Shown piece after piece: positions 4,434-23,644 of a stretch of 23,644 nt of DNA. The notes beneath the pieces are model-generated. The model saw only the letters and a list, made by a program, of their open reading frames with translations, made no database searches and was not told the origin of the DNA. Position 1 is the first letter of the stretch; each line of letters begins with the position of its first letter. A program made the position numbers and the translations under genes. Source of the DNA: Deltaproteobacteria bacterium (GTDB lineage Bacteria; Desulfobacterota; Desulfobacteria; Desulfobacterales; B30-G6); assembly GCA_003647375.1 (NCBI GenBank), contig QMMS01000032.1:1-23644 (forward strand), given 5' to 3'.

Positions 4434-4477
4434 ATAAAAATCGTTATACGATTTTTATGAAATGCGACTTTGTCGCA
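4434..4477. repeat. Two mini-hairpins in the pilZ leader
   Basis: ATAAAAATCG (4434-4443) and CGATTTTTAT (4449-4458) form a perfect 10-bp stem around TTATA. TGCGA (4463-4467) and TCGCA (4473-4477) pair around CTTTG. Read in the gene direction, the first hairpin ends against the GAGGA ribosome site of the PilZ gene. Confidence 0.8.
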
Positions 4478-4593: not shown

Positions 4594-4738
4594 GTGTTTT
4601 GTGTTTGGTGTTTTGTGTTTGGTGTTTGGTGTTTGGTGTTTGGTGTTTGGTGTTTGGTTTTTAGTGTTTTGGAGTCTAACAGCTTGGTATATCATAATAT
4701 ATTCCATGCTAAATACAAAATACTAAACACCAAATACT
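4594..4738. repeat. Heptamer tandem array with inverted counterpart
   Basis: GTGTTTK is repeated nine times without a break from 4594 to 4656 (two early units end in T, the rest in G) and decays into GTTTTTAGTGTTTTGG. At 4709-4738 the opposite strand reads AGTATTT, GGTGTTT, AGTATTT, TGTATTT in perfect 7-base phase. The two arrays face each other across about 35 bp and could form a snap-back structure. Copy number is probably variable. Confidence 0.9.
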
Positions 4739-8217: not shown

Positions 8218-9243
8218 TTGAAAAAGAAAACTATGAACGCAACCGGGAAAAATCAACGGGCAATTAGACCTGCTTCATACAATATGTGGGTAGGCGTATT
8301 CGTTGTGTTTATACTATTTGTGGCCGGGCTTTTTTTGTATGCGACACAGAAAATCGAATATGTTTGGCGCTGGAATCGCATGCCTATTTACTTTGTCTAC
8401 CAAGACACGATTGAGATCAATTCCGAAATCGCAGGTGAAGTTGACACGATTGTCAGGAAAGCAGAGGAAACCACGGTTGCGGTTAAAGGCGAAACGGAAA
8501 CCGTTTTATACACGGTCCCGACAGAAGGCTTAGCAGTTGTCGAAGGGGAGATCATATCTCTCGGAGATAATATAGGCGTATATGAAAAATGGAAACCCGG
8601 TTTGCTGTTGATCGGCCTATGGCTAACGCTGAAACTGAGCCTCATGGCTACAATTTTTGGTATTCTTATCGGTGTGGCAGGGGGACTTGCAAGAATTTCA
8701 TCGAATCCGGCCTTAAAATGGACAGTCATCATCTATGTTGAAATTATACGCGGATCACCGTTGATGGTACAAATTCTCATCTGGTATTTTGTCCTTGGAA
8801 CGGTTATCAACGACATCCTTGCCACGTATGGCCTGGGACGGCTTTCCGCCTTCTGGTACGGCGTTGCCTCACTATCCTGTTTTGCCGGCGCCTACGTTAC
8901 GGAAATTGTCAGAGCCGGCATACAATCTATTCATCGCGGTCAGACCGAAGCAGCAAGATCGCTGGGCATGACCTATGCCCAGTCTATGCGGTACATTATT
9001 CTACCTCAGGCGCTTCGACGCATTCTGCCGCCCCTTGCGGGACAATTTATCAGCCTCATCAAAGACTCGTCGCTTTTAGGTATTATCGCCATTCGCGAAT
9101 TGACCAAAGCAGCAAGAGAGGCCGTATCGGCCAGTCTGCAGCCGTTTGAAATCTACCTGGTCGTGGCGGTACTTTATCTGGTTTTGACCTTTTCCCTTTC
9201 CATGTTCGTTCAACACCTTGAGAGGAGGAGTGCCATAAAGTGA
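8218..9243 (+). CDS. Polar amino-acid ABC transporter, permease with extracytoplasmic insert
   Basis: About 341 residues of the HisM/GlnP permease class. TM1 is at about 24-43. A polar, beta-rich stretch of about 80 residues follows (about 45-127) before the conserved [20 protein letters not shown] segment that normally comes soon after the N-terminus. Further membrane segments follow at about 166-195, 210-232, 275-295 and 312-331. The EAA loop that docks the ATPase is [20 protein letters not shown] (244-263). The insert is unusual for the family, and its [12 protein letters not shown] start recalls biotinyl/lipoyl-like barrels only faintly. The start is unsure: TTG 8218 has a weak AGG nearby, and ATG 8233 is an alternative with no clear ribosome site. 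The stop overlaps the ATPase start by 4 bp. Confidence 0.9.
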
Positions 9244-9971
9244 TTGATGTTCAAAACATTTACAAGACTTTCTTTGTACCGCATGAAGTCAAAGCGCTTG
9301 TCGATGTATCCTGTAAAATAAAGGCCGGCGAAGTCGTGGTTGTCTGCGGACCTTCCGGGTCGGGGAAAAGCACCCTGTTACGATGCATGAACCGGCTTGA
9401 AAGAGCGGAATCAGGCCATATCGTCATTGACGGCATCGATGTTCTCAGCCCGAAAACCAATATCAATAAAGTCCGTGCTGAAGTGGGAATGGTCTTCCAG
9501 TCCTTCAATCTTTTTCCCCATAAAAACGTTTATGAGAACGTTACTATAGCCCAGCTCGTGGTCAGAAAAAGATCCAAGCAGGACACCCGGGAAAAAACCA
9601 ATTTCCTCCTTGATAAAGTCGGAATTTCCGACAAGGCAAAGGCCTACCCGGACAATCTTTCCGGGGGGCAACAGCAGCGTGTCGCCATTGCCCGGGCATT
9701 GGCCATGGATCCGAAGGTGATACTGTTTGATGAACCCACGTCAGCCCTGGACCCGGAAATGATCGGTGAGGTCCTCGATGTCATGAAAACACTGGCGCAA
9801 GAAGGCATGACCATGGTTGTGGTCACGCACGAGATGGGATTTGCCAAAGAAGTGGCAGACCGCGTTATATTTATGGATGCCGGTGCCGTTGTCGAGGTGG
9901 GTACACCCGAGCATTTTTTCGAAAACCCAGAACACGACCGGACCAAGCTATTCTTGAGCCAGATTCTTTAA
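9240..9971 (+). CDS. Polar amino-acid ABC transporter, ATP-binding protein
   Basis: 243 residues, full length for the GlnQ/HisP class. Walker A GPSGSGKS (37-44), Q-loop Q87, signature LSGGQQQR (140-147), Walker [10 protein letters not shown] (160-168) and switch histidine H197 are all intact, so it should be an active ATPase on the cytoplasmic side of the permease. Start is GTG 9240 inside the permease stop (GTGA overlap), with the strong ribosome site GGAGGAG nine bases upstream within the permease gene. This is the last gene of the operon; the mini-hairpin array starts shortly after its stop. Confidence 0.94.
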
Positions 9972-9974
9972 CCT

Positions 9975-10074
9975 GCTTCGCGTCACATGCACTTCGTGCG
10001 TTATTATGCCCTACGGGCGTCATTTACACTTCGTGTGACATTTGTCCTATCGGACGATATTTGCGCTTCGCGCG
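9975..10074. repeat. Array of mini-hairpins, about 18.5-bp pitch
   Basis: Five clear short palindromes follow one another: GCACTTCGTGC (9989-9999), GCCCTACGGGC (10008-10018), ACACTTCGTGT (10026-10036), GTCCTATCGGAC (10044-10055) and GCGCTTCGCGC (10063-10073). A decayed one (TGCTTCGCG) precedes them near 9974. Centres are 18 to 19 bases apart. Stems differ while the apex is CTTCG, CTACG or CTATCG, and spacers are similar (ttattat, catttac, acattt, atattt). It is not a CRISPR array, since the repeated feature is structure rather than sequence. Confidence 0.85.
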
Positions 10075-10191
10075 TAATTCATTGTAGCTCTTAGCTGAAC
10101 CTAAAACTTAGCACTTAAAACCTAAAACTGATTGTTAAATCCACATCTTGTGTCTAAAATCCGAATTTGGCACTCTCCCTTGTGTTTTTTC

Positions 10192-10282: not shown

Positions 10283-13200
10283 ATGAAGCTGAAAAAATTG
10301 GAAATACTGGGATTCAAGTCTTTTCCGGAAAAGGCGGCCATCGCGTTTCCCCAGGGTATTTCTGCTGTCGTCGGCCCCAATGGCTGCGGCAAAAGCAATA
10401 TTGTTGACGCACTCCGCTGGGTGATGGGTGAACAGAGTGTCAAGCAGCTGCGTGGCAAGCACATGGAAGATGTTATATTTTCCGGCACCAAAGGCAAACC
10501 GCCCTTGAACATGGCCGAAGTCTCCCTGACTTTGCTCAACGACAACGGGTCAGCCCCCGAAGAACTCAAAGACTTCACCGAAATCAACGTAACGAGACGA
10601 CTCTACCGATCAGGAGAGAGTGCCTACTTTATCAATCGACAGCCCTGCCGCTTGAAGGACATCCATAACGTCTTCATGGGAAGTGGTATGGGAGCCAAGA
10701 CCTATGCCGTCATTCAGCAAGGCAACATCGGGATCATTACGGACGCCGGCCCTGATGAGCGGCGCCTGTATATAGAAGAGGCCGCCGGGGTCACGCGATA
10801 CAAGAACCGAAAAAAAGAAGCCCTGCGCAAGGTTGCTTCAACACACCAGAATCTCTTAAGGGTGAGCGACATCATAACGGAAGTCAAACGGCAAATGGCG
10901 GGTCTGAAGCGACAGGCCCGAAAAGCCGAGCGGTATAAAAAATACTCGGACCGGCTCAAGATCCTCAACATTCACCTGGGGATCCATTACTATGATGAAT
11001 ATGCCGAAAAAATAGCCGGCACCAGCCGGCTGCTTCAAACACGAAAAGACGACGATCTCCAGCATACTTCCCAGTTAAAGACAATCGATGCGGCGGTCGA
11101 AGAAATTAAATTGAAACGCTGGGAAAAGAACCAGGAAATATCGGCCCAGAAGTCGCAATCATTCGAGGCCCAGCGTAAAATAGACCGGGTAGAAACGGAC
11201 ATCGGCCACCTGCGCAATGAGATCGAACGGTATGCGCATGAGGTGATCGGACTTGAAACAGCCAAAAACGGCCTGGAAGAAAAAAATACCAGCATCATCG
11301 AAGAGATCGATGTCGTCGAAAAAGAATATACGTCTCTATCTGCCGAAAAAAAAGTGGCCACATCCCAGATCGATGCAAAGCAGGTGGAATATCAGCACAT
11401 ACGCGACCGGCTCACACAACTGAATCAACAGATAGAGGTGAGCAAATCAGCCCTCATGGAGATGGTTGCCGAGGAAGCACGGTACAAAAATACCTACCAG
11501 AATGCCTCCAACAACAAAGAAAATCTGGCCCGGCGGCGGAACCGCATAGACCAGGATATCGAAACTGCCGAACAGCATGTCCAGGAAGCAAAACAATCTG
11601 TTCTGGTACATGAAAAAGATATTTCCCTTCTCCGTGAAAGCCTGACAGTATTAAAAAATAAGCTCACAACCATTGAAAGCCGGGTCAACACCAAAATAGA
11701 AGCCCTGAGCCGTCAGGTTAAACAGACGCAATCTACGGAAATGGAACGTAATCAGATCCGGTCACAGGTCTCGGCGCTGAAGAAATTGTCCGAAAGCTAC
11801 GCCTGGTACCGCGACGGTGTTCAGGCAATTATGCGCATTCACCAGGACCTGCCGGAAAATAAGACGCCAGGTTCTGAAAACCCGGAACCACAGAAATCCG
11901 GGGTCGACACCGGGTTTTCTAAAGATATTATGGGATTGATGGCAGAAGTCATCGAACCGGATCCGACGTACGAAACAGCGGTGGAATCGGTTCTGGGAGA
12001 TGCGTTGCAGTATATCATCGTCAAGGATCAGGACACAGGCATGCAGGCCATCGACTACCTCCAGGCCACAGGCGAGGGCCGGGGCGGTTTTATTCCCATA
12101 CCGGGCATCAAGCCCGTATCGCCGAATACCCAGGACGGCACCGAGTCGTCCCGAAAACTACTGCAGCATGTGTCTGTGAAACCTGGTTTTGAAAATGTCG
12201 CCCATGCGCTCCTGGGACATGTCTTTGTTGCCGACAACCTGACCGCGGCCCGTACCCGTTTCAACCGAAATGGCCGCGTTCAGACGATTGTCACCAAAGA
12301 CGGCAACATCATTTCTCACCAGGGTGTCTTTCTGGGCGGCAGCAAGGAAAAATTGTCCAACATTCTCACCAAAAGACAGGAACTGAAGGGACTGACCCGC
12401 CAGGCGGCACAACTCGACAAGAAAGTTGAATCTGAAAGAAAGGCCCGGGAAGCTCTCGGAAAAGAGGTTCGAAAGCTGGAAGAGACCCTGCAGCAGCATA
12501 TCGAAAAGAAAGAGAATGTCCTGGTTGAAGAAAGAGAGGCCGAAAAAAATCTTTACAAGGCCGCTGAGGAATTGAAACATTCCCGACGCCATCTGGAAAT
12601 GCTGCTCCTCGAGCGGGAACAACTCATCGGAGAAGAAAACAATATCGATGTCGAGATAAGCAAATTTCAAAAGGCCATTACAGAAATAGAGAAAAACGTT
12701 CGCAATGCCCAAAATACCGTCACAGATACCAATCAAAAAATAAGCGGCGTCACGGAGACCCTCGAAAGCGCCAACCAGCAGATTATCGATCTGCGCCTCA
12801 AGCACACGTCACTCATCGCAAGCGTTGAAAACAACCATAATACCCTGAGACGTCTAAAGGATTTCTGGCAGGATGGTTTAAAAAGACTGGAGCAGCTCAC
12901 CCGGGACATCACCATCAAAAAAGAAAAACGCATCGCATTGAAGGAAAACAACAAGCACTTAGATGACGAACTGTCCCAAATGTATACGCAGTTCAAACAA
13001 CTCAAAGAGGTACTTCAACAGAACGAGGCAGATTACCTGACCATTGACGAAGAGTTACAGGAAAAAGACGGTATTGTTTCGAACATCCAGAAGGCCAGGG
13101 AAACCACGCTCCAGAATATTCGCCTGCTTGAACTGGAGCAGTCACAGCAGACCATCAAACAGGAGAATATCGCCAACCGCCTCCAGGAAAAATACTTTCA

Positions 13201-13921
13201 GACTATCGACCAGCTGAGGCTACAGGTTGAAAAAATGCCTGAGGGCACCCCCTTGCCGGTCAGAGACATGGAAGAAGAAAAAGAAAGCCTGGGATCCAGA
13301 ATTGCCAGAATCGGGGACGTCAACTTGGGTGCCATCGATGAATACGATGAGCTGAAAACCCGCTACGATTTTCTCATCGAACAGCAGGAAGACCTTGACA
13401 CGGCCATCCAGGATCTTCACAAGGTCATCAAAAAAATCAACCGGATTACCCAGGAGCGTTTCATCAACACGTTTAATGCCGTCAATGAAAAACTTGCCGA
13501 AGTCTTTCCACGTCTGTTCGAGGGCGGCACGGCCAAACTGATCCTGACAGACCCGGACAAGCCCCTGGAGACGGGTGTGGAATATATGATTCACCCGCCA
13601 GGCAAAAAACTGACGCGCATGAGTCTCCTCTCGGGTGGCGAGAAGGCCATGTCCGCCATCGCTTTTATCTTCTCCATTTTCCTTATAAAGCCGACGTCTT
13701 TCTGTCTCATGGATGAAATCGACGCCCCCCTGGACGATGCCAACGTTTTCCGCTTCAATGACCTGTTGAAGGTGATCGGCCGGAAATCGCAGATCATCAT
13801 GATCACTCACAACAAACGATCCATGGAATTCGCAGACACCCTGTTTGGTATCACCATGGGCGAAAAAGGCGTGTCCAAGGTTGTCTCGGTGAACTTCGAC
13901 AGGCAGGCGCAGGCCAACTAA
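10283..13921 (+). CDS. smc: Chromosome segregation ATPase SMC
   Basis: 1212 residues, normal for bacterial SMC, the condensin core ATPase that with ScpA/ScpB compacts and helps separate chromosomes. The N-terminal head has Walker A GPNGCGKS (31-38). A long coiled coil follows, then a hinge at about 530-690 (MGLMAEVIEPDPTYETAVES, GRGGFIPI, VFLGGSKEKLSN), a second coiled coil, and the C-terminal head with signature LSGGEK (1116-1121) and Walker B LMDEIDAPLDDAN (D1144, E1145). All catalytic motifs are intact. ATG 10283 has AGGAGA ten bases upstream and gives the standard KLKKLEILGFKSF beginning. ftsY follows after about 107 bp, an arrangement known in other proteobacteria. Confidence 0.97.
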   Translation: MKLKKLEILGFKSFPEKAAIAFPQGISAVVGPNGCGKSNIVDALRWVMGEQSVKQLRGKHMEDVIFSGTKGKPPLNMAEVSLTLLNDNGSAPEELKDFTEINVTRRLYRSGESAYFINRQPCRLKDIHNVFMGSGMGAKTYAVIQQGNIGIITDAGPDERRLYIEEAAGVTRYKNRKKEALRKVASTHQNLLRVSDIITEVKRQMAGLKRQARKAERYKKYSDRLKILNIHLGIHYYDEYAEKIAGTSRLLQTRKDDDLQHTSQLKTIDAAVEEIKLKRWEKNQEISAQKSQSFEAQRKIDRVETDIGHLRNEIERYAHEVIGLETAKNGLEEKNTSIIEEIDVVEKEYTSLSAEKKVATSQIDAKQVEYQHIRDRLTQLNQQIEVSKSALMEMVAEEARYKNTYQNASNNKENLARRRNRIDQDIETAEQHVQEAKQSVLVHEKDISLLRESLTVLKNKLTTIESRVNTKIEALSRQVKQTQSTEMERNQIRSQVSALKKLSESYAWYRDGVQAIMRIHQDLPENKTPGSENPEPQKSGVDTGFSKDIMGLMAEVIEPDPTYETAVESVLGDALQYIIVKDQDTGMQAIDYLQATGEGRGGFIPIPGIKPVSPNTQDGTESSRKLLQHVSVKPGFENVAHALLGHVFVADNLTAARTRFNRNGRVQTIVTKDGNIISHQGVFLGGSKEKLSNILTKRQELKGLTRQAAQLDKKVESERKAREALGKEVRKLEETLQQHIEKKENVLVEEREAEKNLYKAAEELKHSRRHLEMLLLEREQLIGEENNIDVEISKFQKAITEIEKNVRNAQNTVTDTNQKISGVTETLESANQQIIDLRLKHTSLIASVENNHNTLRRLKDFWQDGLKRLEQLTRDITIKKEKRIALKENNKHLDDELSQMYTQFKQLKEVLQQNEADYLTIDEELQEKDGIVSNIQKARETTLQNIRLLELEQSQQTIKQENIANRLQEKYFQTIDQLRLQVEKMPEGTPLPVRDMEEEKESLGSRIARIGDVNLGAIDEYDELKTRYDFLIEQQEDLDTAIQDLHKVIKKINRITQERFINTFNAVNEKLAEVFPRLFEGGTAKLILTDPDKPLETGVEYMIHPPGKKLTRMSLLSGGEKAMSAIAFIFSIFLIKPTSFCLMDEIDAPLDDANVFRFNDLLKVIGRKSQIIMITHNKRSMEFADTLFGITMGEKGVSKVVSVNFDRQAQAN

Positions 13922-20569: not shown

Positions 20570-20665
20570 TGCGTCATGCCGGACTTGATCCGGCATCCAG
20601 TACCTTGCTGGATTCCCGCCTGCGCGGGAATGACAGCCTTAACATATTTAATTGCCGGAGTAATA
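20543..20665. mobile_element. 123-bp miniature inverted-repeat element, copy 1
   Basis: The ends TATTATCCTGGCAACTAAAT and (reverse-complemented) TATTACTCCGGCAATTAAAT pair at about 17 of 21 positions, with TA at both extremes. Inside are the stem ATGCCGGA-CTTGA-TCCGGCAT (20576-20596) and ATTCCC-N8-GGGAAT (20612-20631). The latter matches the published form of the neisserial dRS3 repeat. There is no coding capacity. A second copy of identical length lies at 23475-23597. Confidence 0.85.
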
Positions 20666-23273: not shown

Positions 23274-23314
23274 ATAAATTCGCTTTGCGAATTTATCATA
23301 CGCGGCTCTGCCGC
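23274..23314. repeat. Two mini-hairpins in the glyS leader
   Basis: ATAAATTCG (23274-23282) and CGAATTTAT (23288-23296) form a perfect 9-bp stem around CTTTG. GCGG (23302-23305) and CCGC (23311-23314) pair around CTCTG. The first touches the AGGGGA ribosome site of glyS (23267-23272). Confidence 0.8.
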
Positions 23315-23330
23315 TTAATTATTTACAGGT

Positions 23331-23644
23331 GTAGATACCCGGGTCCAAAGGGCTCGGCACTGATTCAACCCTATAAGAGTTAACGTTATGCACATTCAGC
23401 GTGTAATAAATACTAAATCCGAATATCGAAATACGAAACAAATCCAAACATCAAATGCTCAAATGATTTAAACATATTAACCTGACGACTAAATAGCCAT
23501 CTCCGTCATGCCGGACTTGATCCGGCATCCAGTGTCTTTCTGGATTCCCACCTCCGCGGGAATGACAACTGTGGGGTATTTAACCGCCGGAGTAATAGTT
23601 TGCAACTTGTATCTCCAAAGGCTTGTTTTGATCATTCGAATTTG
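23331..23644 (+). repeat. Long intergenic repeat, copy 2 (interrupted)
   Basis: It matches 54-248 in the same orientation, interrupted by the 123-bp element at 23475-23597, and runs off the window. Outside the element, differences are scattered single bases and one- to two-base indels. Confidence 0.85.
23475..23597. mobile_element. 123-bp miniature inverted-repeat element, copy 2, inserted at TA
   Basis: It has the same length and organisation as 20543-20665: ends TATTAACCTGACGACTAAAT and GCCGGAGTAATA, inner stem ATGCCGGA-CTTGA-TCCGGCAT (23508-23528) and ATTCCC-N8-GGGAAT (23544-23563). Comparing with the empty site (AAACATAGTG, TA at 199-200), the insertion lies between AAACA and GTTTG with TA on both sides. 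That fits a two-base TA target duplication, as for IS630/Tc1-mariner-type elements. Confidence 0.85.

Follow-up and report, generated by a model that had tools for sequence, protein, structure and literature searches.

Rows of short hairpins with changing but paired stems: a candidate REP/BIME-like repeat family near the Desulfobacterales

Selection on cruciforms or hairpins formed by chromosomal DNA has long been suspected and rarely shown. Two kinds of described systems come close to the locus that we present here. Among the repeats, CGTC REPs are defined by an unpaired CGTC tag (or TGTC, CCTC), a stem of 8-9 bp and a loop of 4-5 nt (Di Nocera et al. 2013, PMC3733652). According to the same survey unlike dimer partners are preferred in most families, for which its authors see no obvious explanation, although protection from SbcCD-type clearance is suggested. 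Among the structures, DNA mini-hairpins whose GNA or GNNA loop sits on two or more G-C pairs are described as extraordinarily stable, with a Tm of 78 C for GCGAAGC (PMC4686876). Hairpin extrusion in phage N4 requires the closing C:G pair as well as the G and A of the loop, the non-conserved stem bases are free provided that the hairpin is kept, and with magnesium the cruciforms were observed at superhelix density -0.035 (PMC4496689).

We have analyzed a row of short hairpins flanked by an ABC-type ATPase gene, which stops at 9971, and an smc-like gene, which starts at 10283. The window, i.e., the whole stretch of DNA that was analyzed, comprises 23,644 bp with 49% GC. Its features around the row are the following.

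9240-9971, + strand: ORF of 243 aa, the upstream neighbour, which we take from its motifs to be an amino-acid-type ABC transporter ATPase
9975-9981, + strand: decayed first unit GCTTCGC, recognised from the sequence and followed by GTCACAT at 9982-9988
9989-9999, + strand: hairpin unit 1, GCAC-TTC-GTGC, with a GAA loop on the - strand
10008-10018, + strand: hairpin unit 2, GCCC-TAC-GGGC, with a GTA loop on the - strand
10026-10036, + strand: hairpin unit 3, ACAC-TTC-GTGT, with a GAA loop on the - strand
10044-10055, + strand: hairpin unit 4, GTCC-TATC-GGAC, with a 4-nt loop, GATA on the - strand
10063-10073, + strand: hairpin unit 5, GCGC-TTC-GCGC, with a GAA loop on the - strand
10081-10097, + strand: half pivot ATTGTAGCTCTTAGCTG; the complete elements of relatives continue into an inverted pivot copy and reverse units
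10098-10128: AACCTAAAACTTAGCACTTAAAACC motif adjoining the array, present too in L001 at the orthologous site that lacks an array, and outside the array family
10283-13921, + strand: ORF of 1212 aa, the downstream neighbour, with homologous loci found, presumably an SMC-like protein (named from its motifs)

The five palindromes and one decayed copy reported in a preliminary description are all present, the five being perfect, with 4-bp stems and a pitch of 18-19 bp, and the array runs past the right end given there (10074), up to the half pivot. Chance can be ruled out as the origin of this array. When the 114-bp region was shuffled 20,000 times (dinucleotide shuffles) and the whole window 60 times, no chain of five hairpins with 4-bp stems at a spacing of 17-20 bp appeared, the largest chain being 3 in both cases, so that the shuffle comparison named beforehand as a possible refutation, run in an adapted form, went in favor of the array. 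In a looser scan of 81 sequences (1.24 Mb), with a spacing of 14-26 bp, the window gave a chain of 7, and there were one chain of 6, 17 of 4 and 142 of 3, versus one of 5, 11 of 4 and 97 of 3 in one shuffle of the same set; since the shuffled set also yields many, short loose chains are frequent by chance. The chain of six lies in another relative (L039:13891-14009), is GC-rich and has a type of spacer unlike that of the array family. The fold of the array gave z values of -1.79 (+ strand) and -0.60 (- strand) as RNA and of -1.53 and -0.34 as DNA, the latter with ViennaRNA parameters that give no bonus to GNA loops, so that the computed DNA folds omit it. The bulk folding energy is unexceptional and the signal is therefore one of periodicity and covariation, not of stability. 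The array is real, non-random and unusually rule-bound. Another of the early proposals, a meaningful recurrence of this apex in other parts of the window, did not hold: outside the array there are 10 apex hairpins versus 10.4 expected (30 shuffles), and a window-wide apex family was rejected at this chance-level count.

Several other repeats were seen along the window. At 4594-4669, 4709-4738, 10098-10128 and 23408-23438 there are arrays that repeat every 7 or 14 bp (GTGTTTG, AAATACA, AACCTAA, AAATACG). A periodic array of the CCTAAAACTTA type abuts the hairpin arrays in the window and in L170, and is present too at the array-less orthologous site of L001. Two long perfect hairpins outside the array, at 4434-4458 and 23274-23296, have stems of 11 and 10 bp and TAT and TTT loops. 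At about 20571-20635 we found CGTC-ATGCCGGA-CTTGA-TCCGGCAT-CCAG and then CTGG-ATTCCCGC-CTGC-GCGGGAAT-GACA, which by its sequence resembles a CGTC-type REP pair in which two unlike stems face one another. In the closest relative (L001:1340-1490) the site of the array is occupied by another palindromic element, the inverted pair TTAGGTTTTAAGT ... ACTTAAAACCTAA.

Among the smc-like loci found, the gene closest to that of the window belongs to the MAG Ww484 (L001, identical at 90%), and Desulfobacterales or Desulfobacteraceae are named for many of the 80 loci kept; the host lies near the Desulfobacterales. A stem-free pattern, in which only the apex and the spacer were fixed, matched 13 of 146 relatives, four of them with at least three matches (G001, G002, G017 and G018) and nine with one, the latter judged on the matched string alone. 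A covariance model (R1) was built from the first pattern matches and itself scores base pairs. At E 1e-5 it matched the same four and none of the others among 58 relatives (G002, the centre of that search, is counted among the 58), and no match at this level was found in the single-match relatives G025, G035, G058 and G066. At E 0.01 there were at least 36 R1 matches in G001, 50 in G002, 75 in G017 and 15 in G018, all lower bounds, 150 candidates being scored per genome. A strict two-unit pattern matched only one of 395 genomes from the whole phylum, G002 itself. The smc genes of the four array genomes are 90, 65, 64 and 62% identical to that of the window, and the best other smc locus 60%, among the best 80 of 125 loci, where G017 and G018 are not shown. 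Judged by smc, the four genomes with the family are thus those nearest to the window among the ones compared; still closer genomes may have been missed, because 80 of the 125 loci were kept, without G017 or G018. The loci L002-L077 contain no cluster of three or more units in 1.18 Mb. A phage or plasmid origin found no support either: 24 matches of a one-and-a-half-unit pattern in viral contigs had no arrays in the ca. 90 bases inspected at each side, 80 viral matches of a 15-mer contained one match apiece and no three-unit chain by script, the sole viral match of the strict pattern (L366) had no cluster by the detector, and blastn of the window array against phages and of the element at L307 against plasmids gave no match.

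The general organization could be established on 80 fetched stretches (20 from G001, 20 from G002, 30 from G017 and 10 from G018), which cover all the array contigs among the matches listed, except contig C245 of G017. Together with the one in the window, our unit detector found 61 clusters of at least three units (60 in the stretches), of which 30 have a single orientation, 29 are '+ then -' and two '- then +'. The sequence ATTGTNGC (at most one mismatch, within 60 nt) was located at 50 of 91 inner array ends versus 2 of 91 outer ends, and the window array has it at 10081. Since ATTGTNGC marks the inner ends and full elements are seen in relatives, the complete element is a row of units, a pivot palindrome and an inverted row, and the window array is the left half of such a composite element. 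The unit has an 18-bp consensus, RNNC-TNC-GNNY plus a GTNATTT spacer, and the pitch is 18-18.5 bp in 160 of 175 same-orientation neighbours. In seven of the 61 clusters there is an overlap with an ORF of at least 80 aa. Like BIMEs, these palindromes are multi-copy, mainly extragenic, clustered and inverted. Judging from its sequence features, the family is best filed as a lineage-specific, dispersed, non-coding extragenic repeat of REP/BIME type. No published account of it was recognised among titles and beginnings of abstracts, a coverage that leaves most subscription journals outside.

The apex deserves a separate description. In the 209 units with at least two of the three free pairs the loop is TNC in 185, and the complementary strand reads GAA (108), GCA (57), GTA (13) or GGA (7), the commonest other loop being AAA (9). 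Of the conserved apex reported in the preliminary description, the first and last bases of the loop are indeed kept; the motif as a whole is better read as C-TNC-G, i.e., C(GNA)G on the other strand. The units follow the sequence rule of C(GNA)G mini-hairpins, with GNA in the loops just counted and a closing C-G pair that was demanded by our anchors and patterns, so that its constancy is not an independent result. Unit 4 of the window, GATA on the - strand, fits GNNA. In '+ then -' elements the strand with GNA points, 5' to 3', away from the pivot at both sides. The best reading of the apex, from these loops, would be the rule for hyperstable DNA mini-hairpins together with the loop rule for extrusion in N4, both read from the other strand.

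Several copies in G017 have a common left end and differing flanks, hence the family disperses. The site upstream of smc carries an array in the window and in G017 and none in G001, G002 and G018. In L284 (G002), L320 (G017) and L328 (G018) we found a common terminator-like palindrome followed by GCGGCTTCGCCGCTATTT, itself a hairpin with a TTC loop; downstream of it there is an array in G002 and none in G017 and G018, and this palindrome with GCGGCTTCGCCGCTATTT is possibly a seed or target for array insertion. As a separate observation, a 347-aa protein next to one array (L281, L314 and L330) is 99.1-99.7% identical across three genomes, and the other proteins compared there 60-79%.

The main evidence for a maintained structure comes from the stems. 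A stem-blind pattern gave 27 distinct two-unit sequences with 208 of 216 cells paired. We analyzed 24 of them (three were left out): 97.4% of 192 cells were paired versus 70.8% in shuffles, 54 cells versus 17.0 differed on both sides from the commonest pair, and the covariation was 0.745 versus 0.238, none of 500 shuffles being as high in any of these measures. Sliding the partner out of register reduced pairing to 15.6-63.0%. The remaining two of the five covariation measures were not above the shuffles (pairs with any two-sided change, 6 versus 5.6; further pair types, 11 versus 13.1). With two-sided anchors, in which nothing but the closing C, the closing G and the ATT spacers is set, all three free positions are paired in 162 of 225 units, when 19.3 are expected with permuted arms (maximum 34 in 2000 permutations); one-sided anchors pair less (180/282 and 160/268). 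The controls gave 3/67 with two-sided anchors, and 3/183 and 53/374, a set including 80 viral loci picked by the GCACTTCGTGC pattern that account for 44 of the 53 and possibly for one of the first 3. Because the 80 stretches were picked with R1, which scores pairs, pairing fractions obtained on them lean high, and the pattern-based set, free of that bias, is the fairer test.

Orthologous sites show the same. There were 27 locus pairs with related genes, of which 10 were aligned, providing 22 aligned units. Here 27 cells were unchanged, 22 had changed on both sides and were paired, 10 were paired in one species and seven in neither. The 22 two-sided changes that stay paired compare with a mean of 9.1 and a maximum of 20 for permuted arms (5000 permutations). 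Among the 18 units with a differing stem, 10 are fully paired in both species. The clearest case is the pair L293/L331, where the flanking 847-aa protein is 92.9% identical and yet all three units counted have new paired stems. The initial suggestion that stems change with their pairing kept is therefore borne out, between units as well as at orthologous sites, and the loss of pairing in orthologous arrays that had been named as its refutation was not what we saw in an adapted form of that comparison: pairing is mostly kept. Such pairing under changing stems implies selection for structure or a copying process.

A second rule, a new observation of this analysis, is that neighbours avoid each other's stems. 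When adjacent units were defined by apex and spacer only, none of 131 pairs had identical stems versus 14.0 expected (minimum of 5000 shuffles, 3), and 20 versus 47.0 differed at one position at most. The figures are 0/68 versus 10.7 for fully paired adjacent units and 0/57 versus 8.3 for distinct pair types per genome, reached by about one of 5000 shuffles. In detector runs there was one identical neighbour in 165 versus 15.9 with genome-wide shuffling (0/1000 as low), and versus 3.9 when shuffling within runs (43/1000 as low), a weaker exclusion. The depletion of identical stems appears at lag 1 only, with none at lags 2 to 4, and concerns the two inner free positions, whose identity is 0.195 and 0.27 versus 0.337 and 0.453; the outer one has no depletion (0.5 versus 0.445). 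Across the pivot, stems at mirror positions were identical in 1 of 49 cases versus 5.05 expected (65 of 2000 shuffles as low), a depletion that we count as weak because the 31 elements include one false window pair and near-duplicate copies. Dimers do repeat in tandem at L281 (GTG-GGC), hence the missing identical neighbours do not mean missing duplication. As each unit is a palindrome, identical neighbours could cross-pair over the 7-nt spacer and unlike ones cannot, and avoidance of this cross-pairing may be the reason for the exclusion. The rule bears on the unlike partners of REP dimers, left unexplained by the REP survey (PMC3733652).

Could the hairpins act in transcripts, as stabilisers of mRNA 3' ends, RNase sites or attenuators? 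Of the 55 clusters with ORFs at both sides 42 are in tandem, 10 in convergent and three in divergent gaps, while 31 of 171 array-free ORF pairs of the same stretches are divergent (22 of 90 when the gap is at least 100 bp). This scarcity is a REP-like depletion, and it is also what transcribed 3' elements would lead one to expect. However, in tandem contexts 93 units are sense and 104 antisense, and the single-orientation arrays divide into 9 and 11; the sense strand has G-U hardly more often than A-C (20 versus 17, with a detector that counts G-T as paired on the unit strand); and the 29 '+ then -' clusters hold both orientations. The window hairpins have no T run after them, the spacer GTNATTT being found instead, and no Rfam family matched the window at gathering scores. 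The lack of strand bias relative to genes disfavors a strand-specific RNA, and an RNA element is in our opinion quite unlikely; a Rho-independent terminator was rejected on the same spacer, the lack of a T run and the lack of strand bias. Strand data and divergent-gap depletion together point to a DNA fold or a by-product of replication. Mobilization as a REPIN by a RAYT (a Y1 transposase) recognising the hairpins would fit the inverted paired organization, the dispersed copies and the presence of Y1 matches in each of the four array genomes (3, 6, 7 and 3). Yet none of these 19 matches lies on the array contigs listed, none of 10 fetched Y1 loci, four from array genomes, has an array cluster, and Y1 matches appear also in the six array-less relatives searched. 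The tag disagrees as well: in the 162 fully paired anchor units the stem is followed by GTA (56), GTC (53), GTT (17) or others and then by the anchor-required ATT, and GTAG is absent. With neither the tag nor an array-flanked RAYT found, a GTAG REP or REPIN was rejected, and movement by a RAYT is very improbable. The family was not assigned to the CGTC REPs either. Fully paired units do read CGTC (32) or TGTC (21), but the first base is paired, so there is no unpaired CGTC, TGTC or CCTC tag, the stems have 4 bp and the loops mostly 3 nt.

The most serious competitor is mutation alone, with template switching and slippage in hairpins keeping and rewriting the stems of functionless arrays. Template-switch-like patterns that create or fix hairpin stems have been reported for RNA genes (PMC8794818), and the rewritten stems at L293/L331 and a site where the number of detected units differs (10 versus 3, L288/L332) would be accounted for. 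Nevertheless, template switching alone would hardly keep the outer bases of the loop while the middle one varies, and duplication of single units should give the identical neighbours that are missing among the 131 pairs, even with dimers repeating at L281. We consider this explanation unlikely. Template switching seems not to predict the loop rule or the neighbour exclusion, and in our view copying and selection therefore act together. Our preferred reading, which we hold to be probable, is a repeat of REP/BIME-like kind that is maintained as DNA hairpins folding independently of each other, template switching being a likely source of the compensated stems. We infer that the feature maintained is the DNA fold. 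When the region becomes single-stranded, as in the lagging-strand template, or negatively supercoiled, each unit would snap into its own C(GNA)G mini-hairpin, and with neighbour stems too unlike to cross-pair into a longer hairpin the row would fold as separate beads. Pairing may be renewed in part by template switches that copy one arm from the other and would leave multi-base compensated changes, and in part by selection. The elements would be dispersed and replaced in the way of other miniature repeats, with a putative enzyme moving them.

What the host might gain is a guess, a supercoil buffer between genes or a docking site for a hairpin-binding protein. The idea advanced at the start, a regular platform for proteins on double-stranded DNA, seems to us a poor fit, a pitch of 18-18.5 bp not being whole helical turns and the stems, in which such a protein would read the bases, being precisely the variable part. 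A more novel but doubtful reading is a genome-encoded DNA folding code, in which the arms of hyperstable mini-hairpins would match within a unit and not those of the neighbour, so that supercoiled or single-stranded DNA forms a string of beads for a putative hairpin-binding protein. In any case the family offers many natural variants in which the effects of stem, loop and neighbour are separable.

Compared with described systems, the hairpins of the N4 virion RNA polymerase promoters resemble ours in being small, with a C:G closing pair, a G...A loop and stem bases that are free as long as the hairpin is kept; those of N4 are promoters, whereas the present ones form rows (PMC4496689). The LIMP/HyLIMP elements of Lobosphaera mitochondria are also dispersed intergenic palindromes, and HyLIMP has a conserved loop with complementary stem changes, but their stem is built of short repeats, they belong to an organelle and are described without rows of separate hairpins (PMC4524435). 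With GTAG REPs, BIMEs and REPINs with their RAYTs the family has in common dispersed extragenic palindromes, clusters and inverted organization, and the Thauera GTAG-1 repeats even have 5-bp stems and arrays; it differs in having no GTAG tag, no flanking Y1 found and stems rewritten in each unit (PMC3733652). The CGTC REPs are, as the survey presents them, short extragenic palindromes often in inverted pairs, without a known dedicated transposase, mostly between tandem and convergent genes and with unlike dimer partners (Di Nocera et al. 2013, PMC3733652), all of which recalls the window family, some of whose units read [CT]GTCATT. The family departs from them in its 4-bp stems (versus 8-9), its loops of 3 nt (versus 4-5), a CGTC or TGTC present in 53 of 162 units and its regular 18-bp rows.
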